A stretch of 64,000 bases of DNA from an alpha proteobacterium HIMB114. GTDB lineage: Bacteria > Pseudomonadota > Alphaproteobacteria > Pelagibacterales > Pelagibacteraceae. The notes under the pieces are model-generated. The model was given only the letters and a program-made list of their open reading frames with translations. It was not told the origin of the DNA and did no database searches. Position numbers and translations under genes: made by a program. Location: NCBI GenBank assembly GCA_000163555.2, contig ADAC02000001.1:558001-622000 (forward strand), in the 5' to 3' direction. This document shows, in pieces, positions 11,994-43,874 of this stretch (position 1 is the stretch's first letter; each line of letters opens with the position of its first letter).

Positions 11994-11997
11994 CAAA

Positions 11998-16019: not shown

Positions 16020-16778
16020 GTGGTAGTTGAAACCTACCTTTTTTTATTTGGTCTCATCGTTGGCAGTTTTTTTAATGTTTGTATTTTAAGATTACCAAAA
16101 GATCAGGATATATTTCTAAAGTCATCAGCTTGTCTAAATTGTAGTAACAAACTAAAATGGTATCATAATATACCACTCATTAGTTTTATATTCCTATTAG
16201 GCAAATGTCATTTCTGTAAAAAAAAAATTAGTTTTCAATACCCATTAGTAGAAATTTTAACCGCTTCTATTTTTTTATTTAGTTATTTGCAATTTGGATT
16301 AACTTTGAATGCATTATTTTTTTCAATCCTTTTATCATCACTAGTCATCATATTTTTTACAGATTTAAATGAATATTTAATTCTGGATATTTTTACCCTA
16401 CCATTAAGTGTTATAGGTTTTGTTTTATCTGCAATAAAATTAAATCCATTTAGCGTTTTGATTGCAGATTCGTTTGCAGGTTTAATCATAGGTTTTAGTG
16501 TATTTTATTTAATCCGATGGTTTTTTTATAAATATAAAAAAATTGAAGGGATGGGTCTTGGTGATGCAAAATTAATGATGATGATTGGTGCTTGGCTTGG
16601 TTTAAAATCAATTTTATTTGTTATGTTTTTTTCATCAGTAACGGCCCTAATTATTGCCATTCCTCTCACAATAATCAAAAAAGATAGGCGTTACCCCATT
16701 CCTTATGGCTGTTTTATTACCTTGGCCGCTTTTTTATACATTTTGATTGGTGATACTTTCTACAAATTCCTATTATAA
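16020..16778 (+). CDS. pilD: Prepilin peptidase / N-methyltransferase PilD
   Basis: PilD cleaves prepilin leaders at the G|F junction and methylates the new N terminus. The 252-residue membrane protein starts at GTG. It has GSFFNVCILRLP near the N terminus, two zinc-binding CxxC pairs (CLNC and CHFC), and a bifunctional-type N-terminal loop. The two catalytic aspartates fall in FFTDLNEYLILD and GMGLGDAKLM. About seven or eight membrane segments follow. It would process all eleven prepilins encoded in the island. Confidence 0.95.
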   Translation: MVVETYLFLFGLIVGSFFNVCILRLPKDQDIFLKSSACLNCSNKLKWYHNIPLISFIFLLGKCHFCKKKISFQYPLVEILTASIFLFSYLQFGLTLNALFFSILLSSLVIIFFTDLNEYLILDIFTLPLSVIGFVLSAIKLNPFSVLIADSFAGLIIGFSVFYLIRWFFYKYKKIEGMGLGDAKLMMMIGAWLGLKSILFVMFFSSVTALIIAIPLTIIKKDRRYPIPYGCFITLAAFLYILIGDTFYKFLL

Positions 16779-21839: not shown

Positions 21840-22533
21840 AAGAACCTCCTGCATCTGCTGATATTGTACTATTTTGAATATACCACGGAGACGGATTTCC
21901 ACAGTCCGCTTGGGCTTCAGCTACCGTTGCTCTTTTATTTCCACCAAAAAATTTTATCCAAACGCAATCTGATTGTGTTTCGGTTAAATCAGTTGTTCCA
22001 GGTGCCATAGTTCCACCGCATAATCCATCTGTAGTATTCCATCTGCCTCTATCTTTGAGATAATTAATAACTAAAACCCTACAAGCATCCATACCGATTG
22101 GACACCCTCCGCCATTACCAAAATTTCCAAACATTGAATAACAAACTAGCTGTATCTGTCCTTGGCGATGGGCTGATTGACCTACTGTATCGACAGTTAT
22201 AGCTTCTAAACTTGGATTCCAAGGGTTTTTAAATTCTGCAAAATGTTCCTTAACACTAAATAAAAAGTCATTACAAGTTGTTGTAGAACTAATTTTATTT
22301 CCAGTTGCGGTACCATCCGATTGTACCTCATTAACTGCACTTGAAAGTTCATTATTTGCTACTGTTAACTCGAAACCTACAGCTCTTGAGACTGTTTCAT
22401 AATTTTGTATTGCAACTTTAATTCTTGCATTATTAACGTATCGATCGTAACCAACAATTCCAACACCAGCTAATACACCAATAATTGCAACAACAACTAG
22501 TAACTCGACTAATGAAAAACCACTTTGTTTCAT
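21808..22533 (-). CDS. Type IV pilin (pilin 4)
   Basis: This 241-residue prepilin has leader MKQSG and then FSLVELLVVVAIIGVLAGVGIVGYDRYVNNAR. The globular domain contains TTCNDFLFSVKEHF, FKNPW, ITVDTVGQSAHRQG, LVCY and GGGCPIG, the shared cysteine-rich signature of five pilins here. Relatives end at or near an acidic DADY/EADY-type tail, but this one continues after ISADA with a Gly/Ser/Cys-rich extension, GGSCGGSSGQPCT. That extra tail contains the ribosome-binding site and start of pilin 3. Confidence 0.92.
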   Translation of the reverse strand: MKQSGFSLVELLVVVAIIGVLAGVGIVGYDRYVNNARIKVAIQNYETVSRAVGFELTVANNELSSAVNEVQSDGTATGNKISSTTTCNDFLFSVKEHFAEFKNPWNPSLEAITVDTVGQSAHRQGQIQLVCYSMFGNFGNGGGCPIGMDACRVLVINYLKDRGRWNTTDGLCGGTMAPGTTDLTETQSDCVWIKFFGGNKRATVAEAQADCGNPSPWYIQNSTISADAGGSCGGSSGQPCT

Positions 22534-22569
22534 AAGACTTTAAGTAATATAATTTTTTAACATTAACAA

Positions 22570-23301
22570 TTAATAATCTGCTTCAGATAAAATAGAATTT
22601 GTAACTTTCCAAGCACCATAAACAGGATCAGTACTAGCTGAACTGTCGGCCCAACCACAATCAGATTTTTTTTGCGGCCAGTTTGTTGAAAAATTTCCAC
22701 CTCCTATATATGCAACCATTTCTTTTGGATTTGGACCAGTTCCCTGTGAACCTCTATCAGTAAAGTAAGTATGTACTCGAGCGGCAGCAGCTCCTGAACT
22801 TATAGCACATCCAGACCCTGAACCAAATCCACCATTTGTTAGATAACAATACATCTGAATATGGCCTTGTTTATGATTTGCTCTACCCTCAGTATCAATG
22901 GTTATTGCTTTTTTTCCTTTAATCCATGGATTTTCAAATCCATTTTCATTTGACTCAAAATGTTTTTTTAATGACCATACGAAATTATAACAGGTTGTAT
23001 ATTCTCCGACCTTTGAAGCAGTCGCTTCAGTAATTCCGGCAGTCGTTGGTGTACCATCTGCAGCTCTTTGGATCCAATTTCCTGCATTATCTCTTTCTCT
23101 CATCGCAGATCCAAGTTGGTTAGATAATATTGTAAATTCAGTTTCAACTGCACGAACAATGTTATTATGCATTTGTTCTAAAACTTTTCGTTTAGTATTT
23201 TCTACGTACCTGTCATAGCCAACAACTCCAACACCAGCTAATACGCCAATGATTGCAACAACAACTAACAACTCTACTAATGAAAAACCCTTATTGCTCA
23301 T
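22570..23301 (-). CDS. Type IV pilin (pilin 5)
   Basis: This 243-residue prepilin has leader MSNKG, Phe+1, Glu+5 and the same first 30 mature residues as its neighbours. The globular domain has YTTCYNFVWSLKKHF, ENPW, ITIDTEGRANHKQG, MYCY and GSGCAIS, and ends in SEADY. It lies 24 bp downstream of the receiver-SpoIIE phosphatase gene and heads a run of three pilins, so all four are probably one transcript. Confidence 0.93.
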   Translation of the reverse strand: MSNKGFSLVELLVVVAIIGVLAGVGVVGYDRYVENTKRKVLEQMHNNIVRAVETEFTILSNQLGSAMRERDNAGNWIQRAADGTPTTAGITEATASKVGEYTTCYNFVWSLKKHFESNENGFENPWIKGKKAITIDTEGRANHKQGHIQMYCYLTNGGFGSGSGCAISSGAAAARVHTYFTDRGSQGTGPNPKEMVAYIGGGNFSTNWPQKKSDCGWADSSASTDPVYGAWKVTNSILSEADY

Positions 23302-29304: not shown

Positions 29305-30081
29305 CTAATAATCCGCGTCAGTGGAGATCATATAATTTGTTCCAATCTCCCATGCAATTCCACCATTTGTTGATCCGCATAAAGTTTCCCCCGCAGCTGG
29401 CTGCATAAATGGTCCGTTGGCAAAACCTGTAGCTCCATTGTTATCCCAAATCTGCGATGATGAATATCCTGCTCTTGTTAAATTAGTTAGACCTCTATTG
29501 TAAGAAATTCCAATTATTGAACTATCGGCATTTGATCTGGCGACAAATTCTGAAGAGTCCCCGGACTCTGTATAGCCTTCAGATGCATATGTTGTTCCGT
29601 CTCTATAATGTGCATAGACTTGAAAATTTGAACTCTCAACTGGACAATTCCATCCTTTTCTAAAACCGTTACCACTTGGCGTAGAGCGATTACACATAAT
29701 TTGTACCATACCTTTTTTATGCTGACCACGATACTCGGAGTCTACTGTAATCATTTTTTTATTAGGAAACCATGGATTAACCATGTCTTTAAAATGTTCT
29801 TTCACCGAAAAAACAAAATGTGCACAAGTTGAACTAGTTGAAATTTTATTTCCTGTTGCAGTACCATCTGGAGCTATTTCATTCATTGCTGAAGATAGTT
29901 CGTTTGAGATAACAGTGTATTCAAAATCAACTGCTTTTAATATGGTTTGAACATTTTGTTCAAAAACTTTCAACTTAGCGTTTTCAACATATCGGTCATA
30001 CCCTACAACTCCAACCCCAGCCAATACGCCAATAATGGCCACGACAACTAAAAGTTCAACTAAAGAGAAACCTTTTTGCAT
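29305..30081 (-). CDS. Type IV pilin (pilin 6)
   Basis: This 258-residue prepilin has the shortest leader, MQKG, then FSLVELLVVVAIIGVLAGVGVVGYDRYVENAK. The globular domain has SSTCAHFVFSVKEHF, MVNPW, ITVDSEYRGQHKKG, IMCNRS and GWNCPVE, later ETLCGSTNGG, and a STDADY end. It is most similar to pilin 3 in the middle region (HKKGM, GWNC). It sits in the operon running from fimT to the receiver gene. Confidence 0.93.
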   Translation of the reverse strand: MQKGFSLVELLVVVAIIGVLAGVGVVGYDRYVENAKLKVFEQNVQTILKAVDFEYTVISNELSSAMNEIAPDGTATGNKISTSSTCAHFVFSVKEHFKDMVNPWFPNKKMITVDSEYRGQHKKGMVQIMCNRSTPSGNGFRKGWNCPVESSNFQVYAHYRDGTTYASEGYTESGDSSEFVARSNADSSIIGISYNRGLTNLTRAGYSSSQIWDNNGATGFANGPFMQPAAGETLCGSTNGGIAWEIGTNYMISTDADY

Positions 30082-30098
30082 TAAATGTAATATATAGA

Positions 30099-30758
30099 CT
30101 AACTTCCTGGTGTATATGCGGCATCAGTATCAATCGCATCTGCACCGGTATTCCAGTTACCATGATCTGTTTGGTTCCAACCGCAATCTGCTTGTGCAGC
30201 TGCTACATTGTCTACTCGTGTTCCAATTAATTTATGTCTCTGTTGAGGCGTTATACCCATTGTACCTTTTGGATCATAATAAACGATAACTCTAAATGCG
30301 GCTCTGGCAATTGGACAACCGCCACCTGATCCATAACCACCGGAAGATTTATAACAAAAAAATGAAATTTGTCCTGGAGAGTGCGTGCTCCAACCTGCAT
30401 TATCTACACTAATACTCGTTTTATCCGTTCGGTATGGATTTTTAAATGCATCGTTATCTTTAAGTAAAAATTTTTTCATTGAATTTAAAAATTCTAAACA
30501 TGTAGTGTCAGCGTTTATTTTTTGACCAGTAGCAGTATTACTGACATTATATTCATCAACTGCACTACCAAGGTTATTTGCTACTATAGTAAATTCTGTT
30601 TCCATAAATCTAAAAATTTTCTCGTAATTTTGATCTAAAACTTTACGCTTTGTATTCTCAACATATCGGTCATACCCCACAACTCCAACTGAAGCCAAAA
30701 CTCCAATAATTGCAACTACAACTAATAACTCTACTAAAGAAAATCCTTTTTGATTCAT
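30099..30758 (-). CDS. Type IV pilin (pilin 7)
   Basis: This 219-residue prepilin has leader MNQKG and the common FSLVELLVVVAIIGVLASVGVVGYDRYVENTK N terminus. The globular domain has DTTCLEFLNSMKKF, FKNPY, ISVDNAGWSTHSPG, FFCYKS, GGGCPIA and DCGWNQ. The N-terminal helix is closest to pilin 5 (VENTKRKVL). It starts 19 bp after the LamG-PilX-like gene, so it belongs to the minor-pilin operon. Confidence 0.92.
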   Translation of the reverse strand: MNQKGFSLVELLVVVAIIGVLASVGVVGYDRYVENTKRKVLDQNYEKIFRFMETEFTIVANNLGSAVDEYNVSNTATGQKINADTTCLEFLNSMKKFLLKDNDAFKNPYRTDKTSISVDNAGWSTHSPGQISFFCYKSSGGYGSGGGCPIARAAFRVIVYYDPKGTMGITPQQRHKLIGTRVDNVAAAQADCGWNQTDHGNWNTGADAIDTDAAYTPGS

Positions 30759-30777: not shown

Positions 30778-32643
30778 TTATCTTATTCTCCAAGATACTG
30801 GGGTTAAAATTACCTTTTCTCTAGCAGAAAGATTTTTTGTAAATCCGTGGGTTTCATTAAAAGCTGGATTTGTATAATTAAGCTGAACTCTAACTCTTCT
30901 TACCCCTGGAGTATAAGTTTCTGGATTATTACCACAGTCATGCTCTTTACCGCAGCTGTCGTAAAAAACATTGGTCAAACCCTGTTTAAATTCATCCATG
31001 GAAATTCCAGTTTGTGGCGTAATTCGAAGAGGTGTTGCATTACCATCAAAAGCTTGATTTACCGTCCATCCCGTTGGAATATTAGTAATATGAATACGAT
31101 CCTCATTATTCATATAAATTGAATTTGAAGAACCATCAGTGAAAAAATTAAATTCTACGGTATTAGGAACTTGAGTTTGAGTAAAACCATAATCTGCAAG
31201 TGTAGTTCCTACCTCTCCCTCTGTACCTATATCACCTTTTACCACAGGAGCAGAAACGACTGATTCTAGTGGTATAAGTTGTCCATCAGGTCCTCTACCG
31301 CATGATAAAATTCTGTAATAAGCAACATCTTCACCTGGAGGAACATTTATCTCTGGGGCATCATTATGATCAGTTACCAAGGGGTATTTTGCAAATGTTG
31401 ATTGCCATTTTGTTTGATTGTCACCTGTCAAACTAAGTCCCATGACAGTTAAATGATTTTTGTCAGCGTCAGCTTTTGTCGCGTTATCATTTACAGTACT
31501 CCCGCTCCCTTCGTTAAATTTATAATAACTCACCAAATTAGGTTCTGATCCTGTTAATCTTGTTCTATAATTATCAGCTATGTTTGATTGTGTTCTTGAA
31601 TTACTCCAAATTCTAACTTCAGTAATATTACCTAGCCAAGGCACACCTTGAAACTCTACACCATTATTTTTAGCAGTGGTAACCGTATCTCCCGTCGTCC
31701 CTTCATCAAAACCATTAAGCCCATTACCAATGACTAATGGCAAATAATCTACACTCGTATCGCCATCATCATTTTGATTTGGCAATAAATTGGATCCACT
31801 TGCGTCTGTTCCATAACTTGTGTCATTATTTGTAAAACTTGCATCCCAAGTACCAGTTAATGATCCGTTTTGATATATTCGAGTATTACCTGTGCCAGAT
31901 CCTCCATCCCAAACCCACGCAAGATGTGTCCATTGTTTTCTTACGACATTTAAATTATTTGCAGGATCAGTTGATGATAATTCGTATGCACCAATTCTTG
32001 GAGAATATTTATGATCGTAAGAATTATTATTAATCACTTTTAAAACAACATCCCAGTATCGTCCATACTCCCAAGCATGCATATTATAATTCACATCATC
32101 CTTGTCGTTATAAACCCACATTTCAACTGTGAACTGATCATCTGGAAAATCTTTAAACTTTCTTACATAAGCACCTGAACGTGATTCACCTAAACCATTT
32201 GTAGCTCCACCAGGACCAAAACCGCCAAAATATAAAGATCTGATATTATCAGCATATCTTTGAACAAAAACTTCGTATTCTATGCCGGCAAATTTAGAGT
32301 CTGTTCCTAAATTACCTTTGATCCATTTGGTAAAATGAATATCTTTTGTACTATCTGTATAGCCATGACGATTTAAACACTGATTATTTGAATTATCAAT
32401 GTGCGAATTATTTTGGATATCAAGTAAAGAAAACTGATCTTTATTCATCTCTGTAAGTAACCAATTCTTCGCTGCCTGAACACCTGTTTCTGATGCAAGT
32501 TTAATTTGCTGATACACACTATTTCTTGTCGTAGATTTTAATGCATTATCATAATAAAAATTCATTGATGCTGTCATCAAAGAGAGTGCGGCAACCACTG
32601 CGATTACAAAAACAAGAACAAAACCTTTTTGATTATTTTTCAT
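30778..32643 (-). CDS. PilX-like minor prepilin with LamG adhesion domain
   Basis: This is a 621-residue protein. The leader MNNQKG-type sequence (MKNNQKG) precedes a hydrophobic FVLVFVIAVVAALSLMTASM helix that lacks Glu+5, as in PilX/GspK-type tip subunits. Residues about 150-400 form a laminin-G/concanavalin-like domain (FTVEMWVYNDKD, WTHLAWVWDGG, TRIYQNGS, ITEVRIWSNSRTQ, LVSYYKFNEGSG). The remaining 200 residues are an unrecognised beta-rich region with a CG-DCG cysteine cluster near 585-593. It is coupled to pilW by TAATG. It is probably the pilus-tip adhesin; no PilY1 is seen in the island. Confidence 0.85.
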   Translation of the reverse strand: MKNNQKGFVLVFVIAVVAALSLMTASMNFYYDNALKSTTRNSVYQQIKLASETGVQAAKNWLLTEMNKDQFSLLDIQNNSHIDNSNNQCLNRHGYTDSTKDIHFTKWIKGNLGTDSKFAGIEYEVFVQRYADNIRSLYFGGFGPGGATNGLGESRSGAYVRKFKDFPDDQFTVEMWVYNDKDDVNYNMHAWEYGRYWDVVLKVINNNSYDHKYSPRIGAYELSSTDPANNLNVVRKQWTHLAWVWDGGSGTGNTRIYQNGSLTGTWDASFTNNDTSYGTDASGSNLLPNQNDDGDTSVDYLPLVIGNGLNGFDEGTTGDTVTTAKNNGVEFQGVPWLGNITEVRIWSNSRTQSNIADNYRTRLTGSEPNLVSYYKFNEGSGSTVNDNATKADADKNHLTVMGLSLTGDNQTKWQSTFAKYPLVTDHNDAPEINVPPGEDVAYYRILSCGRGPDGQLIPLESVVSAPVVKGDIGTEGEVGTTLADYGFTQTQVPNTVEFNFFTDGSSNSIYMNNEDRIHITNIPTGWTVNQAFDGNATPLRITPQTGISMDEFKQGLTNVFYDSCGKEHDCGNNPETYTPGVRRVRVQLNYTNPAFNETHGFTKNLSAREKVILTPVSWRIR

Positions 32644-33275
32644 TAATAACTCACATTCCTCATAAATGCTGCAGCATTATATTTTTCAACAATTTTTTTT
32701 CCAGGATCTTCAAGTTCAATATCAAAATTTAAAATATTATTTTTTTTTTGGATTTTAAATTTTTTAAAATTTTTAGCTACCGGTTCCCAAGATAAAGGCA
32801 TAGTATCATCATCATTTAAGTTACAGTTATTAGAGTCATAAACTCTTTTTTTTAAAATAGTTTTTTCAGTATCACTAGATTGTTCTGTTCCAATTTCATA
32901 TTCAACGATTTTTCTTTGAACTGTTCCATCATTATTTTCATGATCAAAACATGCAGAAACACGATCTGCATCATTACCATCAGATACTGCATTATTTGAA
33001 GTATCAAATAATCGAATTGCATTTGCGTCCGTTATATCTGAAGTAGAATCTATGTGTTTGTACCCCGCCATTCTTAAATCTAGTTGTAACGAATGAATTG
33101 CAAATCGCACTTCTTGTTTAATAACACTATGATTAAGTTGTCTTACAAATGTTTGTTGAAAATTGTTATAAATAAAATAGGCAGTACCCATCACAATAGT
33201 TGAAATTATCACGGCCATTAATGCCTCAGCTAATGACATACCCTTTTGAGATTTAAGATTATTATTAAGAACCAT
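32643..33275 (-). CDS. pilW: PilW-like minor pilin
   Basis: This 210-residue prepilin has leader MVLNNNLKSQKG, then MSLAEALMAVIISTIVMGTAYFIY, with Glu at +5 and Met at +1. The following FAIHSLQLDLRMAGY segment is characteristic of PilW/GspJ-type minor pilins. It starts inside the end of pilV (11-bp overlap), with AGGAGA upstream, and ends at the TAATG junction with the LamG gene. PilW-class proteins help prime the pilus tip complex. Confidence 0.86.
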   Translation of the reverse strand: MVLNNNLKSQKGMSLAEALMAVIISTIVMGTAYFIYNNFQQTFVRQLNHSVIKQEVRFAIHSLQLDLRMAGYKHIDSTSDITDANAIRLFDTSNNAVSDGNDADRVSACFDHENNDGTVQRKIVEYEIGTEQSSDTEKTILKKRVYDSNNCNLNDDDTMPLSWEPVAKNFKKFKIQKKNNILNFDIELEDPGKKIVEKYNAAAFMRNVSY

Positions 33276-34089
33276 TGGTATAATGTCTCCTAAATATTTC
33301 TGTAATATTGTCTTGTTTAATTGTAATTGTAACTTGAGTCTTAGTGACAGATGTAAATTGATCTACTCCACTGACTTGATCTGTTACCCCATCATTATTA
33401 TCATCGACAGGAATATTTACGGTAACTTCATCAACCTCAATTAATCTTTTATCATCTGTTAGTGCACGACCTAAATGATTATTTAAAAGATCACCCCACT
33501 TTTCTAAACTTGTAACTAGATCTGATGACAAAGAGGATTTGTAAGTACTATCTTGATACTTTAATAAGTCTAAATCATCGTATGGATCCAAAGATCCATT
33601 TGCATTTAAAGTAAATGTAAGTTTAGCGTTAGCAACAGCATTAGTAGCTAAACTTAAGTTTGGTGATGTATCTGGAATATCTGATCTTTTTACAGTTAAA
33701 GTTGATCTTGTATTTGTTAAACTTGTAGCAGCTGTAATTTCATAAGTGCCAGGTACTCCAGCTATTACAAATCGATCTCCAACTTCAGGAACTGATGTTA
33801 GGGCGCTAATCACAATTGACTGAGTTGAGCCTCCAGAAGGATTTGTATTTTGAAAAACAACTGGATCTCCATATTGATTTGGTTTTGGTGCATAAACTGC
33901 ATTCAATTCTTCAAAAACTAAATCTACTGCATAAGCAGCTTTGTCAAATTTTCTAAGAAGAGTGAAACGTTTTTCTTGCTCAGACTGCAATGTCATAAAC
34001 ACAATAACTGAAACCGCGAGTATTGTTGAAGCGGTAATGGCTTCAATAATGGATAAACCTTTTTGTTTTTTAAATTTATTTTTAATCAA
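33265..34089 (-). CDS. pilV: PilV-like minor pilin
   Basis: This 274-residue prepilin has mature N terminus LSIIEAITASTILAVSVIVFMTLQ with Glu+5. I start it at the TTG at 34089, just after a GGAG and overlapping the fimT stop by 8 bp, which gives leader MIKNKFKKQKG. An ATG at 34128 would lengthen the leader to 24 residues. The region KAAYAVDLVFEELNA resembles PilV/GspI. No cysteines are seen. It belongs to the FimT-PilV-PilW-PilX tip set. Confidence 0.82.
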   Translation of the reverse strand: MIKNKFKKQKGLSIIEAITASTILAVSVIVFMTLQSEQEKRFTLLRKFDKAAYAVDLVFEELNAVYAPKPNQYGDPVVFQNTNPSGGSTQSIVISALTSVPEVGDRFVIAGVPGTYEITAATSLTNTRSTLTVKRSDIPDTSPNLSLATNAVANAKLTFTLNANGSLDPYDDLDLLKYQDSTYKSSLSSDLVTSLEKWGDLLNNHLGRALTDDKRLIEVDEVTVNIPVDDNNDGVTDQVSGVDQFTSVTKTQVTITIKQDNITEIFRRHYTNGS

Positions 34090-34654
34090 TCCTATCTCCA
34101 ATATTAAAAAAACCCGATGAATACACATTTAAAAAATCAGCTTTACCACCTGCTCGGTTTGAAGCAGTTATTGATCCTCGAGCATTTTCAGGCATAGTTG
34201 CATTGGGTAATATACAAAAATAATTATTTGCATTTGATACAGCGGTGCAGTTTCCTGTTAATGATGTACATTTTTTTATCGTAAAATGTTCAAGGTCTTT
34301 CGTTAAATCATCAACTTTGGCACCATTATTTCCTGCTCCAGAAAAACTTGAACAAGGTGGAGAAGAGTCTTTGTGGAATTCTGTATTAAAACGATTTAAA
34401 CTTTCATCTCTATACACTTCTAATTCAGCAGTATTATCTGTATCATTATTTACAATCTTAATTCGATATGCATTTCCATCCTCCATGGCCATTTGTCGAA
34501 CCAAATTAAATTGAGACCTAACAATTGAAATATCCCCTTGATAATTTTCACTAACACCGAAATTATTTATTGCTGGTAGACCAATTCCAACAACAATTGA
34601 AGCAACTGCAATAACAACTAATAGCTCGAGAATACTAAAACCATTGCGATTCAT
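34082..34654 (-). CDS. fimT: FimT/GspH-like minor pilin
   Basis: This 190-residue prepilin starts at the ATG at 34654, with leader MNRNG and FSILELLVVIAVASIVVGIGLPAINNF at the mature N terminus (Glu+5). The LPAINNF segment and the following SQFNLVRQMAMEDG resemble FimT/GspH. Cysteines lie in PPCSSF, KKCTS, GNCTA and YFCIL. It is the promoter-proximal gene of the operon that continues through pilV, pilW, the LamG protein, two pilins and the receiver. Confidence 0.87.
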   Translation of the reverse strand: MNRNGFSILELLVVIAVASIVVGIGLPAINNFGVSENYQGDISIVRSQFNLVRQMAMEDGNAYRIKIVNNDTDNTAELEVYRDESLNRFNTEFHKDSSPPCSSFSGAGNNGAKVDDLTKDLEHFTIKKCTSLTGNCTAVSNANNYFCILPNATMPENARGSITASNRAGGKADFLNVYSSGFFNIGDRID

Positions 34655-34679
34655 ATTTATTATAGTATGATTTTTTATA

Positions 34680-35051
34680 ATGAATTGGTCAATTTTAAAA
34701 ACCAAGTTTTTTTTACGTGTTTATCTTATGGTAACTTTTTCTTGCATGGTCAATATGGTTTCAGGGAAAATTTTACTAATTTCGATGAAACATTTTATAA
34801 TTGCTTCCAAAGTAGGATTGGTATGTGCCGGAGGCTTTGCATTAGTTACCTTGCTAACTTCTAAACTTATGCAGAATAAATATTTTTTAGCAGGGTACGT
34901 TTTTTTAGCTACTGGGGTGATTGATTATTTTACTCATCCAACACATTTTGGAGCTCACTACACTGAAGCGGTTACAACTGGACTTGGAGCAGCTTTAATA
35001 TCTATTATAGTTTCTTTTATTTTAGATAAAAAAAATCAGCCAACTGCCTGA
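34680..35051 (+). CDS. Small membrane protein, unknown
   Basis: This protein has up to 123 residues and three hydrophobic segments (about 38-60, 67-87, 95-115). The motif DYFTHPTHFGAHYTEAV lies between the second and third. The start is uncertain: ATGs at 34680, 34728 and 34785 are all in frame and none has a good ribosome-binding site. The first leaves only 25 bp to the divergent fimT. The 3' end overlaps the convergent pilC stop by 16 bp. No family is recognised. Confidence 0.6.
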   Translation: MNWSILKTKFFLRVYLMVTFSCMVNMVSGKILLISMKHFIIASKVGLVCAGGFALVTLLTSKLMQNKYFLAGYVFLATGVIDYFTHPTHFGAHYTEAVTTGLGAALISIIVSFILDKKNQPTA

Positions 35052-36319
35052 CCCACGCTGAATATTGGAAGGTACAAGGCCACCATCAACAAACCAATAA
35101 TAGCACCAATCACCACAATCATTAAAGGTTCGATGATTGATGATAAAGCGGCAACAACACCATCAAATTCTTCTTCGTAATATACAGCAATAGATTTAAA
35201 CATTTCTTCCATATTTCCTGTTTTTTCACCAACCGCCGTAAGTTGGGATAAAGCTAGTGGAAATACATGTGTTTCATTTTTCAATAGTTCTGACAACGTT
35301 TGACCAGTTACAATTTTTTTTGAAATTCTCTCTATAGCATATGCAAAAACTAAATTAGTTGTGACTGTTTGAGCAATTCTTAAAGTTTCTATAATGCTTA
35401 CACCAGCTCTTGTTAGGTTTTCCATAATCATACACATTCTGGAAACTGTAGACTTGATAATTAAATCTCCAAATAAAGGAAATTTTAAAAATCTTTTGTG
35501 CATCATGTGCCTAAAACTTTCGATGTTATTGTATAAAAATTTGTAAATAAATCTGACCACAAAAATGGTGATTGCAATTCTTAATATATTACCTCCATCT
35601 GCAATAAACCGACTTGCATCTACTATAATTAAAGTTGGACCAGGTAATTTAACTCCCATATTTGCATACATCTTTTCAAAGACTGGAACTACTTTCCATA
35701 ACATGAATATGGTAATTGTAGTTGCAACTGTAAGAAGCATGATTGGGTAAAAAAGAGCGCTTTTAATACCAGATTTAATTTTTTGATTTTTTTCTAAAAG
35801 TTCAACTAGCTTAATTAAAAATTCATCTAACTTACCACTAGCTTCTCCTGCTGAAATCATATTAATATATATATTATCAAAAATTTTTGGATGTTTTTTA
35901 AAAGCATCTGTTAAATTCATTCCAGAATTTAAATCTTTAACAATATTATGAGCTGTCATTTTCATTTTCATATGAACAGTTTGATCTCTAATCATCATGA
36001 TAGACTCTAAAATTGGAAGGCCAGCCTTAATCATAGTTGATACTTTTTTAGTAAATTGAAGTAGTTCTTTCGCTGGAACAGTCGCCCAAGGTCCAAAATT
36101 TAAATAAATCTGACCACCTTTAAAAATAATTGGCGCATTACTTACTGGAATATCAACAATCTCGTTAGTTTTATTTTTACTTGCAGTTGCTTTTTTTATT
36201 CCAGTTACAATAATTTTTTTTTGTCGAAGAGCTAAAGAAGCTGCTTTTAGGTCCGAAGCGTTAATCTCTCCATTAACCCTTTTTCCAGCCTGAACACCTG
36301 AGTATGCAAATGTTGCCAT
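35036..36319 (-). CDS. pilC: Type IV pilus platform protein PilC/GspF
   Basis: PilC is the polytopic inner-membrane platform that PilB and PilT turn during pilus extension and retraction. The 427-residue protein has the N-terminal FAYSGVQAGKRVNGEI segment and two T2SSF domains, marked by FTKKVSTMIKAGLPILESI around residue 86 and MCMIMENLTRAGVSIIETLRIA around 295. Hydrophobic helices lie at about 190-215 and 395-420. It starts three bases after pilB. It is the last gene of the pilMN-P-Q-B-C operon. Confidence 0.96.
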   Translation of the reverse strand: MATFAYSGVQAGKRVNGEINASDLKAASLALRQKKIIVTGIKKATASKNKTNEIVDIPVSNAPIIFKGGQIYLNFGPWATVPAKELLQFTKKVSTMIKAGLPILESIMMIRDQTVHMKMKMTAHNIVKDLNSGMNLTDAFKKHPKIFDNIYINMISAGEASGKLDEFLIKLVELLEKNQKIKSGIKSALFYPIMLLTVATTITIFMLWKVVPVFEKMYANMGVKLPGPTLIIVDASRFIADGGNILRIAITIFVVRFIYKFLYNNIESFRHMMHKRFLKFPLFGDLIIKSTVSRMCMIMENLTRAGVSIIETLRIAQTVTTNLVFAYAIERISKKIVTGQTLSELLKNETHVFPLALSQLTAVGEKTGNMEEMFKSIAVYYEEEFDGVVAALSSIIEPLMIVVIGAIIGLLMVALYLPIFSVGQAVG

Positions 36320-36322
36320 AAA

Positions 36323-38068
36323 TTATGTAACTAATATCCTTGAATATTCATGGATATCAATTACTCCGCTTTTAATGAAACCGCGACCAATATCTTGCAT
36401 GGTTTTAAAACCACCTTTTACAGCAACCTCTAGGAGTTCATCACCCCTAGCATCTCTTAAAATTGCAGATTCCAATTCAGGCGTTTTTTTTAAAACTTCA
36501 TAGATTCCTTGACGACCTTTGTAGCCAGTGTTGTTACACTCTCCACAACCTTGTCCTCTTTTAGCTTTAAATGTTGATAGTTCTTCTTGTTTAAAACCTA
36601 GTTTTAATAAACTTGGCTCAGTAGCCTGATCATCTTCAACTAAACAACTTTGGCATGACTTTCTTGCAAGACGCTGAGCAACAATAAGGGTTAATGCAGA
36701 CGCAACCATAAAATTTGGAACACCCATATTTGTCAGTCTTACTACAGTTGATACAGCGTCATTGGTATGAAGCGTACTTAGAAGTAAATGACCAGTCAAC
36801 GCTGCTTTAATTGCAATATTTACAGTATTTTTATCCCTAATCTCTCCAACTAGTATAACTTCTGGATCTTGTCTTAAGAAAGATTTTAAAATGCTTTCAA
36901 AAGTTAATCCAATTTCTTCATTGGCTTGGACTTGGCCCACACCTTTTAGATAAAACTCAACAGGATCTTCTGCAGTCATGATATTTTTTCCAGGACTATT
37001 AATTTTTTTAATACAGCCATAAAGCGTTGTACTTTTACCACTTCCTGTTGGTCCGGTTACAAGTACCATTCCTTGTGGCGCGGTTATTGCACTCACTAAA
37101 TTTTTATAATCTTCTGGATCAAGTCCTATCTGTTCAAGACCAAGATCAGGGCCAGCTGCAAGTAAACGCATAACAACTCGCTCACCTTCTTTTGCTGGAA
37201 GACAAGAAAATCTTACATCAATATCTTCATCATCTGCACTTTTGGGTTTTGGATTTTTAAATTGTAATTTACCATCTTGGGGTAAACGCCTTTCAGAAAT
37301 ATCACATCCCGCCATGATTTTAAGTCTGGTAATTATGGCATTATAATTTTCCATTAAAAAACTAGTAAACTGAGATTGCTCTTGTAATACTCCATCTTTT
37401 CTAAAACGAATTCTAGCTTCGCCTCGTCTATAAGGCTCGATATGAATATCTGAAGTACCTGTATTAAAAGATTCTAATAATATTGCATCAACAAAAGATA
37501 CTACATCACCTTCGCCAGGCTTTACTCCTCTTGCACCTGGTATTTTAATACCTTGAGCCATAGGTTTAGGTTTTGTGGCAGATTGATCTGGTCCACCTGT
37601 AGACTTTAAAGCCTCAACAACTACTTTAAACTTTTTCGCACTTTCAATATTTGAAGGTTTGGCAACATAAATTTCTATGTTACAACCAGTCATACTTTTC
37701 ATCTTGCTTGATAATGTTGATTTGGTTGGATCAAAAATCGCAACTTTCAAAATTTTTCCAACTAAATCAAATGGTATTATTTCATTTTGTTGAATAAAAT
37801 CTTTTGGTAATTTTGCTAACGCTTCTTTTTTTACAGTTTGTTCAGTTAACTGAATTTTCCTTAATGCATAATTTCTTGAAATTGCCGCTACAATATCATC
37901 TTCTGTAATTTTTTTGTCTTCAATTAAATAATGCAAAATTCCAAGTGGTACTTTGCCATTTCCATCGTGTTTTTTCTTGGCCTCTGCAATCATTGGATCA
38001 GATAATTTACCCATAGTTTTTAGAAGGGCAGAAACTTTTAAACTTATTTCAGGAGTAATTGATGGCAT
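36323..38068 (-). CDS. pilB: Type IV pilus extension ATPase PilB/GspE
   Basis: This 581-residue assembly ATPase has an N-terminal MshEN-type domain (about 1-150), Walker A GPTGSGKST (339-347), the Asp box TAEDPVE, Walker B ILVGEIRD and His box STLHTND. A four-cysteine zinc site near the C terminus has CQSC and CGEC in GCGECNNTGYKGRQGIYEVL. It powers pilin polymerisation at the inner membrane. The N-terminal domain type can bind cyclic di-GMP in some relatives, but the conserved RLGxxL motif is degraded here. Confidence 0.96.
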   Translation of the reverse strand: MPSITPEISLKVSALLKTMGKLSDPMIAEAKKKHDGNGKVPLGILHYLIEDKKITEDDIVAAISRNYALRKIQLTEQTVKKEALAKLPKDFIQQNEIIPFDLVGKILKVAIFDPTKSTLSSKMKSMTGCNIEIYVAKPSNIESAKKFKVVVEALKSTGGPDQSATKPKPMAQGIKIPGARGVKPGEGDVVSFVDAILLESFNTGTSDIHIEPYRRGEARIRFRKDGVLQEQSQFTSFLMENYNAIITRLKIMAGCDISERRLPQDGKLQFKNPKPKSADDEDIDVRFSCLPAKEGERVVMRLLAAGPDLGLEQIGLDPEDYKNLVSAITAPQGMVLVTGPTGSGKSTTLYGCIKKINSPGKNIMTAEDPVEFYLKGVGQVQANEEIGLTFESILKSFLRQDPEVILVGEIRDKNTVNIAIKAALTGHLLLSTLHTNDAVSTVVRLTNMGVPNFMVASALTLIVAQRLARKSCQSCLVEDDQATEPSLLKLGFKQEELSTFKAKRGQGCGECNNTGYKGRQGIYEVLKKTPELESAILRDARGDELLEVAVKGGFKTMQDIGRGFIKSGVIDIHEYSRILVT

Positions 38069-38094: not shown

Positions 38095-39729
38095 TTATAC
38101 AATATTAGCAGTAACAAATATTAACAGCTGAGATTTGGTATCGCTTTTAGTCTTCTTTTTAAAAAACTCACCCAAAACAGGAATTCTATGCAGTAAAGGT
38201 ACAAATATAATATCGTCTTGTTTTGTATTTTTGTAAACTCCACCTAAAATAGCAACATCTCCATTATTTAACACCACCGTTGAAGTAACATTCTCCGTAT
38301 TTTTAGGTGTGTTAGCATCTGTTCCTCCCTGGCCAAGAGAATCGTTCGCTAGAGAAATTTGTAATCGTACCTTATCGCCAACAATTGTTGGAGTTACTCC
38401 AAAATTTAATGTGAAATCTAAAGTTTCAAAACCACCTGCATCCCCTCCAGAAGCAGGGACTGATCTTACTTGCTGGGTACCTTGACTAATGGTTGCCTGT
38501 TGGCCATCTATTGCAAAAATCTTTGGATTAGAAATAGTTTCGGAATTTGTATCAGATACTGATGCGGCTATAGTTGCTGATAACAAAGCTCGACCAATAC
38601 TTCCAATAATTAGTGTTCCTCCTTGCAAAGTTGGAGCGGTTAAAGATGTATCAGCACTCGGACTTGGTGTTCCAACTTCTAATTGGTTACCCTGGGGATT
38701 AGTTGCACCAATTATAGTTCCGATACCGCTTTGATTACCTCCTCTAAAATCTCCAGCTGCAGTCGAGCTTATCATCTCTAAATTTGCATCAAACTTTTTT
38801 GCAAATCCATCTTCGGCATTCACTATAAAAGCTTCAATCATGACTGATTTACGTTCAATATCAATTTTATCTAAAAGTTTTTCAGTTTGATCCAACTGTT
38901 GTTTAGTTCCAGTAATAATTAGTTGATTATTAATAGCATCATTTGTTACTGATAAACCATCAACTACAGCATTTAAACTTGCAATTAAATCCTGTGATGT
39001 TTGATTAAAAACTTTAAAAATTTCTGTAGAGGTTTCTTCTTCTACAGATTGAGTTTCGGTTCCAGTTGCATCTGTAGCTGAGCTGGCTGGTGCAGTTGAT
39101 ACACTATCATTTCCAAGAGACTCTAAATTTTTATTTATTGTATTTGTGTTATCAATATTTTGTTTTTCTAAATCTATAAATTTCTTTTTCGTATGCACTC
39201 TTAACATTCTAGATGATTGATCATGTAACATTACAAGATTATTCATTTCCAGAATTGCATAAACCGCTGAACCCCATTTAATATCTTGAAAGTCAACTGT
39301 GATATTTCCGCTTACCTCATCTCCAATGATGAGGTTTCTTTTTACAATACTAGAAAATAATTTAAGGGCCGATCTGATACTCATTGAGTCAAACTTCAAA
39401 GTTACAGGAATTGTCTCAAGAGTTTTGATTGGTAAATTTAAATCAATAATATCTTTTGGCCCTGAAGAAACTTCAGTGACCGAAGGCTGATCTATAGGAA
39501 TTCTTCTTTTTGAAGTTGCTTTCTTTTTAGATTTAAACGAATTAACCTGCTTTAAAAACTCGTCTGAATTTTTCTTTAATTCTTTAATTGAATTCTTTAC
39601 ATCAAAATTTTCAATGTCTTGCTTAGTTGTTTTATCATCTCTTTTAGAGGCCATATCAGGTCTCTTTTTTCCGCAAGAAGCTGTAAAAATCAAAAGTACG
39701 GATAAAGTTAAAACAAAAATTTTCCTCAT
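38095..39729 (-). CDS. pilQ: Outer-membrane secretin PilQ/MshL
   Basis: This secretin (544 aa) forms the outer-membrane pore for the pilus. It appears to be a lipoprotein: signal sequence with lipobox TASC at about 16-19. Residues 105-175 are an STN/N0-type domain (SIRSALKLFSSIVKRNLIIG, SGNITVDFQDIKW). An N1-type KH-like domain follows (FKVFNQTSQDLIASL). The secretin beta-domain runs from about 290 to the end, with VMIEAFIVNAED, SNPKIFAIDGQQA, VVLNNGDVAILGG and VPLLHRIPVLGEFF. It lacks the AMIN domains of large PilQ proteins, so it is MshL-like. It is coupled to the upstream gene by TAATG. Confidence 0.93.
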   Translation of the reverse strand: MRKIFVLTLSVLLIFTASCGKKRPDMASKRDDKTTKQDIENFDVKNSIKELKKNSDEFLKQVNSFKSKKKATSKRRIPIDQPSVTEVSSGPKDIIDLNLPIKTLETIPVTLKFDSMSIRSALKLFSSIVKRNLIIGDEVSGNITVDFQDIKWGSAVYAILEMNNLVMLHDQSSRMLRVHTKKKFIDLEKQNIDNTNTINKNLESLGNDSVSTAPASSATDATGTETQSVEEETSTEIFKVFNQTSQDLIASLNAVVDGLSVTNDAINNQLIITGTKQQLDQTEKLLDKIDIERKSVMIEAFIVNAEDGFAKKFDANLEMISSTAAGDFRGGNQSGIGTIIGATNPQGNQLEVGTPSPSADTSLTAPTLQGGTLIIGSIGRALLSATIAASVSDTNSETISNPKIFAIDGQQATISQGTQQVRSVPASGGDAGGFETLDFTLNFGVTPTIVGDKVRLQISLANDSLGQGGTDANTPKNTENVTSTVVLNNGDVAILGGVYKNTKQDDIIFVPLLHRIPVLGEFFKKKTKSDTKSQLLIFVTANIV

Positions 39730-40991
39730 TATCTAAATAAATCCTCTACGTTCGTAATTGAGTTTTCTTCGCTTGAAGCTGACTCTTGCGTCGATGGTGT
39801 TTGGGCTGCAGATGATGCTTCAGAACCTGGCTCAGCCGAAGTTTCTCCAGTTGGAGTAGCTGCAGTGCCTGTTGAAGAAGGTGCAGTAGGTACTTGGGGT
39901 ATTGATGCAACTTGATTTACAATTGGTGCATTAATTTGAAATGAAAACTCTTCATAATTTTCTAAAACTTTCATTTCGTGGTTTGTGATTTTAACAATCT
40001 TACCACCGTTTTTCCCTAACTTATCTCCTTCTCTAACCATAAATTGATTTCCACGAATTTCAATAATTGCTAAATTTTTTGGATTAATTGTATAATTTAA
40101 TAAACCTCTTTTTGTTTTCATGATTTCTACATTTAAAACCGGGTTCACAAAGATAGGTATTTTTACATATTGTCCTTTATTCAATTTATCATTTCTCGAA
40201 AGGTTATTTATTTTTAAAACTTCCTTCTTGGTTCTGTTAAATTTTTTGGAAATTTGCTCTATAGTTTCCTCGGAATTAGTTCTGTAAACATAAAAAGGTA
40301 ACAACAATTTCTCACCTAATTGAAGTTCATCACCAGGCATCAAATTATTAAAACCAATTAAATCTTTTAATTCTAAACTATAAATTTCAGCAATCATTCC
40401 TAAAGATTGACCTTTTTGAACTTTATGTACTCTTGCAGGTAAAGTTATTCTGGTTCCCATAATAAGTTTTGAACCTGGAACAATTGAATTTGCGATTTTT
40501 AATTCTTGAGACGCATAACCATATCTTGCTGCAATACTTTCGATGGTATCATTTTGGTTAACAATATGAGTAGTTTTTATGTTTCCATAATCAACTTTTT
40601 GAGCCGATCCTTCTCTATTGAACGCAACCATATTTAAATCTTGAGCTGTATTAAGGGCTGTTCCTTTTAATGTATACTCAACTAAATCGTAAGCAATTAA
40701 TGGATTAGGCGCTAATATATTTCCAATCGGTTCAAGCTTGCTTAACACAGGTTGTGAAACAGGTTGCTGTACTTGACTTACGGGAATTTCAGTTTGAGAA
40801 ACTGTCTTTTCCTGAGTGGCATCATTATTTTCTGCTGATTTTTCTTTGTTGTTTTCATCTTCACTTGATGCCTGATTAAGCTCGCTGCCATCACCCAAAC
40901 TTCTTGTAAAAGGGTCCTCTACATTCGCGAGTAAAGCTTTGCTTGAAAATATAAATGTAATAAAAAATAGTAATAAAATTTTTTTAATCAT
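39729..40991 (-). CDS. PilP-like protein with three LysM repeats
   Basis: This 420-residue exported protein has a signal peptide of about 22 residues and a low-complexity linker to 80. A short PilP-like stretch, IAYDLVEYTLKGTAL, is at about 99-113. Three LysM units follow at about 141-186, 188-233 and 236-281 (IVNQNDTIESIAARYG, HKVQKGQSLGMIAEIY, TNSEETIEQISKKF). Residues about 305-350 then fit the PilP core, with NQFMVREGDKLGKNGGKIVKI. A Pro/Ala/Ser/Thr-rich tail completes it. PilP links PilN/PilO to the secretin; the LysM units should grip peptidoglycan. It lies between the PilMN fusion and the secretin, where pilP normally sits. Confidence 0.75.
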   Translation of the reverse strand: MIKKILLLFFITFIFSSKALLANVEDPFTRSLGDGSELNQASSEDENNKEKSAENNDATQEKTVSQTEIPVSQVQQPVSQPVLSKLEPIGNILAPNPLIAYDLVEYTLKGTALNTAQDLNMVAFNREGSAQKVDYGNIKTTHIVNQNDTIESIAARYGYASQELKIANSIVPGSKLIMGTRITLPARVHKVQKGQSLGMIAEIYSLELKDLIGFNNLMPGDELQLGEKLLLPFYVYRTNSEETIEQISKKFNRTKKEVLKINNLSRNDKLNKGQYVKIPIFVNPVLNVEIMKTKRGLLNYTINPKNLAIIEIRGNQFMVREGDKLGKNGGKIVKITNHEMKVLENYEEFSFQINAPIVNQVASIPQVPTAPSSTGTAATPTGETSAEPGSEASSAAQTPSTQESASSEENSITNVEDLFR

Positions 40992-40993
40992 AA

Positions 40994-42748
40994 TTATTTT
41001 TTCTTAATAATTTTATCTAACACCTTAAAGTTATCAAATTTCTCACCTTCTATCGGTGCCATAGCAATAGTTGCTGAGAATTTTTTTGTAATATCTTCAT
41101 TAGGCAAAGTCTTTGGAGCGCTCTTTCCTTTTTCACTATAAAGAATAGTTCTGTCTTGTTCAGTGAAATTAGTAACGTTATTTACTTTTGCTTCTTTTAC
41201 AATTTCAGCTGCAGAAAACTTATCAATCATTTGAATGATGGACTGATCATCTTTAGCAACACCGTCTATTTCAACTCGTCTTTTGTCATTAATTTCAAAT
41301 TTTGTTAATCTTACATTTTCTGGAACATTTGAAGATAAAGATGCTATTAATTCAGCAGTCGTTTTTTTATTTTCACCAAAATAATTTGAGGTGCTGACTT
41401 GTCCAGTTATCTTTCCAACTTTACCCTGGAAAGCTTGGACAAGCTGTTCCTTAGATTGAACATCTTGTGTTATTCCAGCTAATTTAGAAATTTCCGACGA
41501 ATTATCTAAAATTGTAAAAAGACTTCCGACAACTAAATGAATGCTTCCAAAGAAAAATATTAAAAAACTTATCACATAACAATATTTAGAAAATGAATTT
41601 GCTTTTCTATTGATTTTTAATTGGTCGGCTCTTGGAATTAAATTGAAATCATACATCTGATTTTCATTAACGACATTATAAGCATTTAATTTTCTTATTC
41701 CCGCACCAATACAATTAATTATTTTTGATTTATTTGGTAAAGCATCTAAATATTTTTTTTCATCATCTCCAAATGTAATACTTTCTTCAGGATCGTAAGT
41801 TTTAATAACTACTTCCCCAAATTGTTTCTCTAATCCAGCAAAAAGATTTTTTGTTTTAGGTTTGTCCGTTACAACATTTACTAAAGAAATTGGTTCACAT
41901 TCATACTGAGTTTCAAACTCAACTAAGCCTTGTTTAATTTGTGATGCGAGACGATCAAAAATCTCATCCCAAAATTCAGTTGTAACATCTTCAATATCCT
42001 CAATCGTATCTAAAAGCACCTGATCTGCTTCAACGATATTAATATCTGAAATATTCAAACCTTTATTCGAACAAACAGTTAAATAACTATTATCTTTACT
42101 GTAATTAAAAATAGCAACAGGACTATCAAATCCTTCTTTTCCAAGTGAAGCGTATAGTGCATTTATTTGAGATGCAGGATTAATGTCTATGATAATTGGA
42201 TTAAGTCCTGCTAATCTGAAAATATTAACATAAGCTTCAACTAATTTTTTTTCAATTGTAACTAAAGCAACATTCATAACGCCTAATTCTTCATTAGATG
42301 AAATGATTTGATAACTTGTTTCAAACTCCTCTAAAGTCTCAGGTGTTTCATCAAACTGTTCCCAAAAGCCCCCAAGACTAACTGTCTCTGCTAAATCTTT
42401 TGGATCCATAAGCGGAATTTGAAGATTATAAAAAGTTGTGCTTAATTTATCTAAAGTAATCGCAACATCTTTAGTTTTCGTATCAATAGAATCTAAGCAG
42501 TTTTTTATTTGATCACTCAGATAAGTTGATGCTGAATAAATATCTTGATCTTTTCCAATTCCTGCAATTTGTTGATAGGTATAATCTTTTACCTGCCAAA
42601 TTTTTTTCTTATAAACAAGTTCGATTAATTGAATCTCGTTATCTTTAAACGCAACGCCTAAAATTTTTTCTCCATTTAATGAGATTTTTCCTAATTTTTG
42701 AAAAATAGGTTCTAAATTTTTATTTAATAGTTCAGTTATGTTAGCCAT
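40994..42748 (-). CDS. PilM-PilN fusion protein
   Basis: This protein has 584 residues. The first 360 or so look like the actin-like cytoplasmic PilM, containing KILGVAFKDNEIQLIEL, AITLDKLSTTFYNLQIP, LAGLNPIIIDINPASQ and a terminal CIGAGIRKLN. At about 370 comes the PilN start motif YDFNLIPRAD, then a membrane helix (about 388-412), a short coiled coil, and the PilN periplasmic domain with LIASLSSNVPENVRLTKFEINDKRRVEIDG. Fusing the two resembles GspL of type II secretion. It heads the leftward PilP-PilQ-PilB-PilC operon, with divergent pilT 137 bp away. Confidence 0.85.
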   Translation of the reverse strand: MANITELLNKNLEPIFQKLGKISLNGEKILGVAFKDNEIQLIELVYKKKIWQVKDYTYQQIAGIGKDQDIYSASTYLSDQIKNCLDSIDTKTKDVAITLDKLSTTFYNLQIPLMDPKDLAETVSLGGFWEQFDETPETLEEFETSYQIISSNEELGVMNVALVTIEKKLVEAYVNIFRLAGLNPIIIDINPASQINALYASLGKEGFDSPVAIFNYSKDNSYLTVCSNKGLNISDINIVEADQVLLDTIEDIEDVTTEFWDEIFDRLASQIKQGLVEFETQYECEPISLVNVVTDKPKTKNLFAGLEKQFGEVVIKTYDPEESITFGDDEKKYLDALPNKSKIINCIGAGIRKLNAYNVVNENQMYDFNLIPRADQLKINRKANSFSKYCYVISFLIFFFGSIHLVVGSLFTILDNSSEISKLAGITQDVQSKEQLVQAFQGKVGKITGQVSTSNYFGENKKTTAELIASLSSNVPENVRLTKFEINDKRRVEIDGVAKDDQSIIQMIDKFSAAEIVKEAKVNNVTNFTEQDRTILYSEKGKSAPKTLPNEDITKKFSATIAMAPIEGEKFDNFKVLDKIIKKK

Positions 42749-42884: not shown

Positions 42885-43874
42885 ATGTTAGAAGACTTAC
42901 TTCGGGACTTACCTAAGCAATACGACTTATCCGATATTCATATCAGATCGAATCAACCCATCGCGATAAGAGAAAATGGTGAAATAAAAGTTTTTAATGA
43001 AAACGTAATTAGAAGAGAAGATCTAGAAAGTTATTGGAAAAAAGCGTTAGATAAATCTCAATTTGATTACTTAATCAATAATGGAGATTTAGATTTTGCA
43101 ATTGTTGTTGATGGACAAAGATTTCGTGCCAACGGTTATTATTGTTCTTATGGACCAAGTATGGTGCTTAGAAAAATTGTAACTGAAATTCCTGATATTA
43201 ATAAACTTGGACTACCTGAAGCGGCACATGTTGCTATCACTCATAAGACAGGTTTAGTTTTAGTTACAGGTCAAACAGGATCTGGTAAATCAACTTCGCT
43301 TGCTGCAATGATTGATCAAATCAATTCAAACCGTGCAGAAAATATTATTACCATTGAAGATCCGATAGAATTTGTTCACCCTGCAAAGAAAAGTATTATT
43401 TCGCAAAGGGAAGTTGGAAAAGATACAGGTAGCTTTGCACGAGCATTAAAATCTGCACTAAGACAAGATCCTGATGTTATTCTTGTGGGTGAGATGAGAG
43501 ATTTGGAAACTATTTCTTTAGCATTAACTGCTGCCGAAACAGGTCACTTAGTTTTTGGAACATTACACGCAAGTAATGCAGGATCAACTATTACAAGAAT
43601 ACTTGACGTATTTCCTGCTGCACAAAAAACTCAAGCTCAAACTATGCTTGCGGGATCAATTAGACTAGTAATGTCTCAACAATTATTAAAAAGAAAAGGT
43701 GGTGGAAGAATAGGTTGTCATGAAATTATGACAGGGACACCAGCAATAAGAAATTTAATTCGTGAAGGAAAAGTTGAACAAATTCCATCTACACTTCAAA
43801 CATCTGCAAAAGATGGGATGTTTACTATGGAAAAATGTTTAGAAGGCCTCAAACAAAAAGGTCTAGTTGAATAA
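42885..43874 (+). CDS. pilT: Type IV pilus retraction ATPase PilT
   Basis: This 329-residue hexameric ATPase disassembles the pilus. Walker A is GQTGSGKST (about 128-136), the Asp box IEDPIEFVH, Walker B ILVGEMRD and His box GTLHASNAGST. The C-terminal AIRNLIREGK is the PilT-specific retraction motif (AIRNLIRE), which separates it from PilB. It is transcribed divergently from the pilMN operon, so the shared 136-bp gap probably holds promoters for both. Presence of pilT makes this a retractable, T4a/MSHA-like pilus. Confidence 0.96.
   Translation: MLEDLLRDLPKQYDLSDIHIRSNQPIAIRENGEIKVFNENVIRREDLESYWKKALDKSQFDYLINNGDLDFAIVVDGQRFRANGYYCSYGPSMVLRKIVTEIPDINKLGLPEAAHVAITHKTGLVLVTGQTGSGKSTSLAAMIDQINSNRAENIITIEDPIEFVHPAKKSIISQREVGKDTGSFARALKSALRQDPDVILVGEMRDLETISLALTAAETGHLVFGTLHASNAGSTITRILDVFPAAQKTQAQTMLAGSIRLVMSQQLLKRKGGGRIGCHEIMTGTPAIRNLIREGKVEQIPSTLQTSAKDGMFTMEKCLEGLKQKGLVE

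Follow-up and report, generated by a model that had tools for sequence, protein, structure and literature searches.

Inspection of the type IV pilus genes of a complete, single-contig 1.24-Mb genome of the Pelagibacteraceae (SAR11; G000) points to a pilus whose adhesive end is built into one of its own minor pilins: we put at roughly 0.7 the probability that a modular K-type PilX with an inserted LamG domain does the adhesive job of PilY1 in this SAR11 type IVa pilus (T4aP). As the pilus lineage is without the usual tip adhesin PilY1, the pilus probably grips through PilX-LamG itself. The stretch analysed, termed the window below, comprises 64,000 nucleotides (positions 558001-622000 of that genome), and coordinates refer to it unless a locus of another genome is named (Table 1). 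The presence of a predicted PilX/GspK-type minor pilin carrying a Laminin_G_3 domain at 32643..30778 on the minus strand is confirmed: its reading frame starts with ATG, has zero internal stops and closes the fimT-pilV-pilW-pilX series.

Table 1. Pilus genes of the window, segments of PilX-LamG (by residue) and loci with giant minor pilins in relatives
Feature	Position	Strand	Remarks
pilD, prepilin peptidase	16020..16778	(+)	Peptidase_A24 and A24_N
Two prepilins (258, 219 aa)	29305..30758	(-)	Glu5 present; N_methyl; directly downstream of pilX
pilX-LamG	30778..32643	(-)	621-aa K-type minor prepilin with inserted LamG and C-terminal module
PilX-LamG 468-621	30778..31242	(-)	C-terminal domain, predicted mostly β
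PilX-LamG 439-467	31243..31329	(-)	last two strands of the pilin core (YYRILSCG...LESVVSAPV)
PilX-LamG 132-438	31330..32250	(-)	inserted LamG/ConA-like domain; PF13385 match and absence from plain PilX
PilX-LamG 1-131	32251..32643	(-)	class III leader, N-terminal helix, first part of the PilX pilin core
pilW, minor prepilin	32643..33275	(-)	210 aa; Glu5 present (MSLAE)
pilV, minor prepilin	33265..34128	(-)	Glu5 present (LSIIE)
fimT/H-type minor prepilin	34082..34705	(-)	FSILE; true start probably the ATG near 34654
pilC, inner-membrane platform	35036..36319	(-)	comparison with relatives
pilB, extension ATPase	36323..38068	(-)	homologues in compared T4P loci; name presumed from gene order and family knowledge
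pilQ, secretin	38095..39729	(-)	PF00263, E 2e-32
LysM-PilP fusion	39729..40991	(-)	LysM E 1.4e-20, three stretches; PilP E 7e-4
pilM-pilN fusion	40994..42748	(-)	PilM_2 E 7e-8; PilN E 2e-7
pilT-like retraction ATPase	42885..43874	(+)	T2SSE E 3e-49; 329 aa, a size like that of PilT in relatives
Giant PilX/PilW locus, L026	4687-14069		LamG and lectin-like stretches
Giant PilX/PilW locus, L046	7804-17223		LamG and lectin-like stretches
Giant PilX/PilW locus, L048	7818-17215		LamG and lectin-like stretches

A K-type prepilin interrupted by a LamG domain

The sequence-only reading had taken the protein for a PilX-like prepilin, an assignment borne out by its N-terminal motif, a profile match and the gene order. 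Like other type IV prepilins, it has a class III-like leader that ends in glycine and is followed by a hydrophobic helix (MKNNQKG/FVLVF, i.e., MKNNQKG/FVLVFVIAVVAALSLM; Gly at -1, Phe at +1 and +5), and cleavage by PilD would be expected after Gly7; the GF pair at this site is invariant across 15 SAR11 PilX proteins. Comparison by hhalign of a profile of five LamG-bearing proteins (residues 1 to ~134) with one of nine plain SAR11 PilX gave a match at 98.8% probability (E 5.5e-17) over residues 1-132. This homology of the PilX core, combined with the last place in the H-I-J-K gene order (FimT-PilV-PilW-PilX), identifies a K subunit. Neither of the curated K-subunit models, PF14341 and NF037980, scores it above its cut-off: PilX_N (PF14341) has no match in Pfam, and the best match in NCBIfam, to the T2SS GspK model NF037980 (residues 5-70, E 0.005), reaches 16.3 bits against a cut-off of 130. 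Several plain SAR11 PilX likewise fall under the PilX_N cut-off. N_methyl (PF07963) also found no match at E up to 1, as expected of a K subunit; that model looks for the Glu5 which PilX is without.

Residue 5 is glutamate in FimT, PilV and PilW and phenylalanine in PilX-LamG. This phenylalanine had been read as a special sign of a tip position; it proves instead to be a family trait, as Glu5 is found in 0 of the 15 SAR11 PilX, ten without a lectin insert among them, and hence it marks a K subunit and not an exceptional tip protein. PilX and GspK lack Glu5 in general (PMC7541494), and a subunit without this residue is held to cap the tip, with K subunits capping T4F (PMC7541494, PMC10191384).

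The sole family that Pfam recognizes in PilX-LamG is Laminin_G_3 (PF13385), at residues 161-279 (window 31807-32163; E 3e-10, 40.9 bits against a cut-off of 27.6), which is also the only LamG_3 match in the genome. Its location within the PilX pilin core makes the protein a modular pilin. The LamG domain had been described as built onto the prepilin; its presence stands, but it is inserted into the pilin sheet, the strands at ~439-467 coming after it. The segment YYRILSCGRGPDGQLIPLESVVS (residues 442-464), C-terminal to LamG, aligns with the hairpin that closes every SAR11 PilX and is conserved among them; in plain versions it takes the form YxIxSCG...I.xLE, and the loop that holds the insert is short in those plain versions. 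Because LamG interrupts the sheet, the supposed 200-residue unknown region that follows it is the last hairpin, where the pilin fold ends, plus a separate C-terminal domain. The C-terminal domain (468-621) had no match in a Pfam scan and only partial AF2 strands, and is homologous to the C-terminus of the 1900-aa PilX of G023, G100 and G103 (BLAST identity 28-32%, E ~1e-18). Judged from these alignments, the architecture is pilin part 1, LamG, pilin part 2 and C-terminal domain.

An AF2 model shows helices at 3-36 and 39-66 and strands at 102-111 and 122-131 in the N-terminal part, and the two strands of the last hairpin at 439-450 and 456-467 with pLDDT ~80; a separate model of a plain PilX shows similar core elements, with the insert absent. 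While the PilX core is confident, pLDDT over LamG is ~22-50, and below 50 across most of the insert, on account of the shallow alignment. A PDB fold search returned no significant match, that with the plain PilX model was uninformative too, and phmmer found no detectable match to the protein among solved structures. Given the low AF2 confidence and the lack of a fold match, the LamG fold and the insertion geometry rest mainly on sequence.

The C-terminal end of the insert is a GNITEVRIWSNSR...LVSYYKFNEGSG motif that is also seen in LamG domains encoded by very large ORFs of other members of the phylum. A scan of genome contigs recovered only the near-identical copy of a relative, plus N-terminal or LamG fragments. 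Further, when 397 genomes of the phylum were searched with a profile, PilX joined to LamG turned up in no genomes but that of the window and its sister; the remaining matches lay in large ORFs and covered part of LamG, mostly the tail motif. The insert has a GC content of 0.37 versus 0.32 for the core, with third-position GC no higher, and hence shows no sign of recent import from outside.

The pilus genes around pilX

The PilT-type ATPase and the set of pilins encoded around pilX (Table 1) argue for a retractable T4aP and not a T2SS. The PilV of the window is, outside its own clade, closest to the PilV of G011, a genome that likewise lacks PilY1.

Several features of the locus are of separate interest. 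LysM occurs in the PilP-position protein of the PilY1-less clade (window 39729-40991, where the PilP match is weak; L056 3490-4686) and was not found in the PilP-position proteins of three other SAR11 loci; it might anchor the secretin to peptidoglycan. Between PilM/N (40994-42748) and PilP (39729-40991) the window has no separate PilO-sized gene, a position at which other SAR11 T4P loci have a gene of ~210-230 aa. A 123-aa plus-strand ORF (34680-35051), conserved in G006, splits the pilus operon between fimT and pilC. Further prepilins with Glu5 are scattered around the island (10910-12540, 21039-23301), with nearly identical N-termini (GFSLVELLVVVAIIGVL...) and differing heads. Additionally, the G006 locus (L044 9044-9448) has a rhodanese-like gene, absent in the window genome, between the pilin pair and a response regulator.

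Absence of PilY1 and its complementary distribution

The sequence-only reading had seen no PilY1 in the island, an observation that extends to the whole complete genome: neither the Pfam HMM of the PilY1 β-propeller (PF05567, T4P_PilY1) nor a SAR11 PilY1 query finds one there. A PilY1 gene elsewhere, which that reading had named as what would overturn it, was thus sought genome-wide and not found. With the same PF05567 search, PilY1 was detected in 51 of 60 T4P-bearing genomes of the order; these relatives were taken as positive controls because 14 named control genomes gave no PF05567 match. The weakest SAR11 PilY1 has an E of only 5e-4 in Pfam. The SAR11 PilY1 query returned nothing from six PilY1-less genomes and matched in G019, G031, G053 and G074. 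SAR11 loci also encode, between PilX and PilY1, an uncharacterized companion protein of ~175 aa (L038:13470-13997 and equivalents; alignment A10), a candidate PilY1 partner; its profile is absent from all six PilY1-less genomes and present in the seven others tested. The idea that a weak HMM had overlooked PilY1 was dropped after the SAR11-specific query and the companion search. The apparent losses of PilY1 in G149, G191 and G203 were set aside, since the PilX/minor-pilin locus was also not recovered there and they look like assembly gaps.

The PilX profile allowed ORF length to be determined in 64 genomes, 59 of which yielded the start of PilX. The five long PilX ORFs (632, 635, 1904, 1906 and 1912 codons, in G000, G006, G023, G100 and G103) all come from genomes without PilY1, while 53 of the 54 genomes with a short PilX (~200-331 aa; one stop-interrupted) have it (Fisher 1.2e-6, with the five long-PilX genomes forming one clade and hence representing about one or two independent events). 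This comparative pattern lends further strength to the earlier idea of a tip adhesin. G011, the one short-PilX genome without PilY1, is perhaps a second independent case. The interrupted frame belongs to a PilY1-bearing complete genome (G043:C1:207460-208232), in which a stop codon marks either a pseudogene or a sequence error.

PilC identity to the window protein is 77-97% within the long-PilX clade and 42-50% for most others, and in a PilB+PilC tree PilY1-less and PilY1-bearing systems are split by a branch with UFBoot 100. Three of the long-PilX genomes (G023, G100, G103) come from a different genus (g4). As most other members of that genus have the PilY1 type, this suggests that the pilus locus was transferred between genera.

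Purifying selection and mosaic divergence

The second genome with the shorter of the long PilX forms (G006, JALEGD010000001, Pelagibacteraceae) encodes a 97% identical, 621-aa PilX-LamG at the same place. This copy in a second species and a dN/dS of 0.033 over the whole gene indicate that PilX-LamG is not a chance gene, and the value of 0.031 within the LamG insert points to its maintenance under purifying selection. Synonymous differences per site between the two genomes amount to ~0.45-0.65 for the operon genes as well as for the PilX scaffold (residues 1-180, 421-480), but to ~0.2 for residues 181-360 and for residues 481-621 (p 2e-14 for the comparison of scaffold and modules). Seen along the alignment with L044, this is a roughly threefold synonymous drop at window positions 31330-32100 and 30778-31200 which spares the intervening pilin strands. 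Synonymous constraint is disfavoured as the source of these tracts, as the same domain shows no comparable dip among the three giant PilX. Instead, read most simply, the pattern in this one species pair suggests that the binding modules were exchanged recently between the two species by homologous recombination and the scaffold strands not.

Elaborated minor pilins in relatives

In G023, G100 and G103, PilX (1901-1909 aa) and PilW (1221-1231 aa) are very large for minor pilins. The giant PilX shares the LamG of the window protein, which Pfam scores at E 5e-9 and 2e-7 in the two sequences searched, and adds three C-type-lectin-like stretches, a label given by motif (GYL-A/V-T/S/N-I, WRW-TGP, EPNN, WND) because the Pfam Lectin_C matches are marginal (E 0.004-0.03). 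The PilY1-less G011 (L027 11840-15791) combines a normal PilX with a PilV of 703 aa and a PilW of 615 aa, the latter containing a C-type-lectin-like stretch, and its locus appears as a second way to load the tip complex. Large ORFs also lie near the pilus loci of G100 (L047 11224-17211) and G103 (L049 11421-16775); that of G100 has 12 PATR autotransporter repeats and is perhaps the coastal SAR11 adhesin of PMC12636525.

Proposed mechanism and alternatives

In the mechanism that we propose, PilD would take the 7-residue leader off PilX-LamG, which would then join FimT, PilV and PilW in a priming complex with PilX, devoid of Glu5, at the apex of the pilus. From this position LamG would emerge first through PilQ and face outward. 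Via LamG the pilus could attach to a surface, a polymer or a cell, with PilT retraction then pulling, and the inserted modules would take on the adhesive and capping work done by PilY1 in other SAR11 pili. LamG domains may bind proteins or other ligands, or serve structure alone; a glycan is the ligand presumed here. A bolder generalization, which we hold only tentatively and would rather doubt than assert, is that the T4aP tip of this SAR11 lineage consists entirely of pilins, that lectin modules in PilX (in relatives also PilW or PilV) took over both the adhesive and the priming roles of PilY1, and that such modules recombine between species faster than the scaffold. If true, supposedly non-adherent plankton would have swappable pilus-tip specificities.

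Other explanations have to be weighed against the replacement of PilY1 by PilX-LamG. PilX-LamG could be an ordinary modular pilin, the function of PilY1 being supplied by an unrelated or unrecognizably diverged protein elsewhere. PilY1 N-termini are variable and the faintest SAR11 version is barely visible to Pfam, while a PATR-repeat ORF lies near the G100 locus and coastal SAR11 are reported to encode such autotransporter adhesins next to T4P genes (PMC12636525); we nevertheless regard this as unlikely, as the SAR11 PilY1 query and the companion profile find nothing in the complete genome or in the lineage's four others, and the minor-pilin operon holds nothing else large. Somewhat less probable is a competence pilus in which the insert is a DNA receptor or a spacer instead of a glycan adhesin, in the manner of Thermus thermophilus ComZ, where a bulky domain in the sheet of a GspK-like pilin binds DNA and is argued to be tip-located (PMC6561018). 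PilT and PilD are indeed at hand, and SAR11 pili have been discussed with competence as one of their roles (PMC12636525). However, the ConA-like LamG_3 is counted among the carbohydrate-binding families in modular pilins (PMC8179133), and the C-type-lectin-like modules in the PilX of relatives suggest varied ligands and not DNA.

The resemblance to GspK, the top NCBIfam match, raises the further notion of a T2SS-like pseudopilus in which LamG touches secreted substrates, since GspK too has an inserted domain and no Glu5 (PMC8179133, PMC7541494); the score far under the cut-off and the presence of a PilT-type retraction ATPase, several major-pilin-like genes, PilM/N and PilP make this very unlikely. 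Hardly credible, finally, is a plain signal peptide or anchor on a secreted or membrane LamG protein that is no pilin at all. It would explain why Pfam N_methyl and PilX_N both stay silent, but the former is tuned to Glu5, and the 132-residue match to plain PilX, the invariant GF motif, the conserved last hairpin and the operon position all speak for a pilin.

Relation to known systems

Among characterized tips, that of the T4aP of Myxococcus and Pseudomonas (PMC7541494), shared by most T4P-bearing SAR11, has the same FimT/U-PilV-PilW-PilX series with a PilX lacking Glu5; there, PilX is ~200-330 aa and a separate PilY1 (~1150-1700 aa) forms the cap, whereas here PilY1 and its companion are missing. 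The T2SS GspK is likewise a K subunit with no Glu5, a domain inserted in the sheet and a proposed place at the pseudopilus apex; unlike LamG, its inserted domain is α-helical, its system has no PilT, and the sequence match to it is weak. Such sheet insertions are known from GspK and ComZ at other insertion points (PMC8179133, PMC6561018): in ComZ a β-solenoid sits between the penultimate and last strands (PMC6561018), while here LamG precedes the last hairpin and an extra C-terminal module follows. Streptococcus sanguinis PilC (PMC9934059) offers another parallel, as a minor pilin with a ConA-like/lectin-class module in a proposed tip complex. Glycan binding has been demonstrated for that ConA-like lectin (PMC9934059). 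Its lectin is, however, C-terminal and Glu5 is present, as opposed to a LamG inside the sheet of a K subunit that lacks Glu5, in a PilQ-bearing diderm. In the same species, PilB is a modular minor pilin with a vWA module (PMC8179133).

A paper on SAR11 mentions filaments resembling pili, as well as autotransporter adhesins encoded next to T4P genes (PMC12636525); our literature searches found no account of SAR11 modular pilins, nor of PilY1 missing where PilX carries an adhesin. A lectin-type pilus tip under purifying selection in a 1.24-Mb genome yields a concrete prediction that can be tested: these bacteria should attach to polymers, particles or cells. Further, the coexistence of PilY1-capped and PilY1-less pili in one order provides a natural contrast for asking which PilY1 roles (priming, capping, adhesion) a pilin can take over. 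Modular pilins are common, PF13385-bearing ones included, and the published census of them relied on the N-terminal motif IPR012902 (PMC8179133); as such a census misses K subunits without Glu5, tip pilins like PilX-LamG have probably been under-counted.
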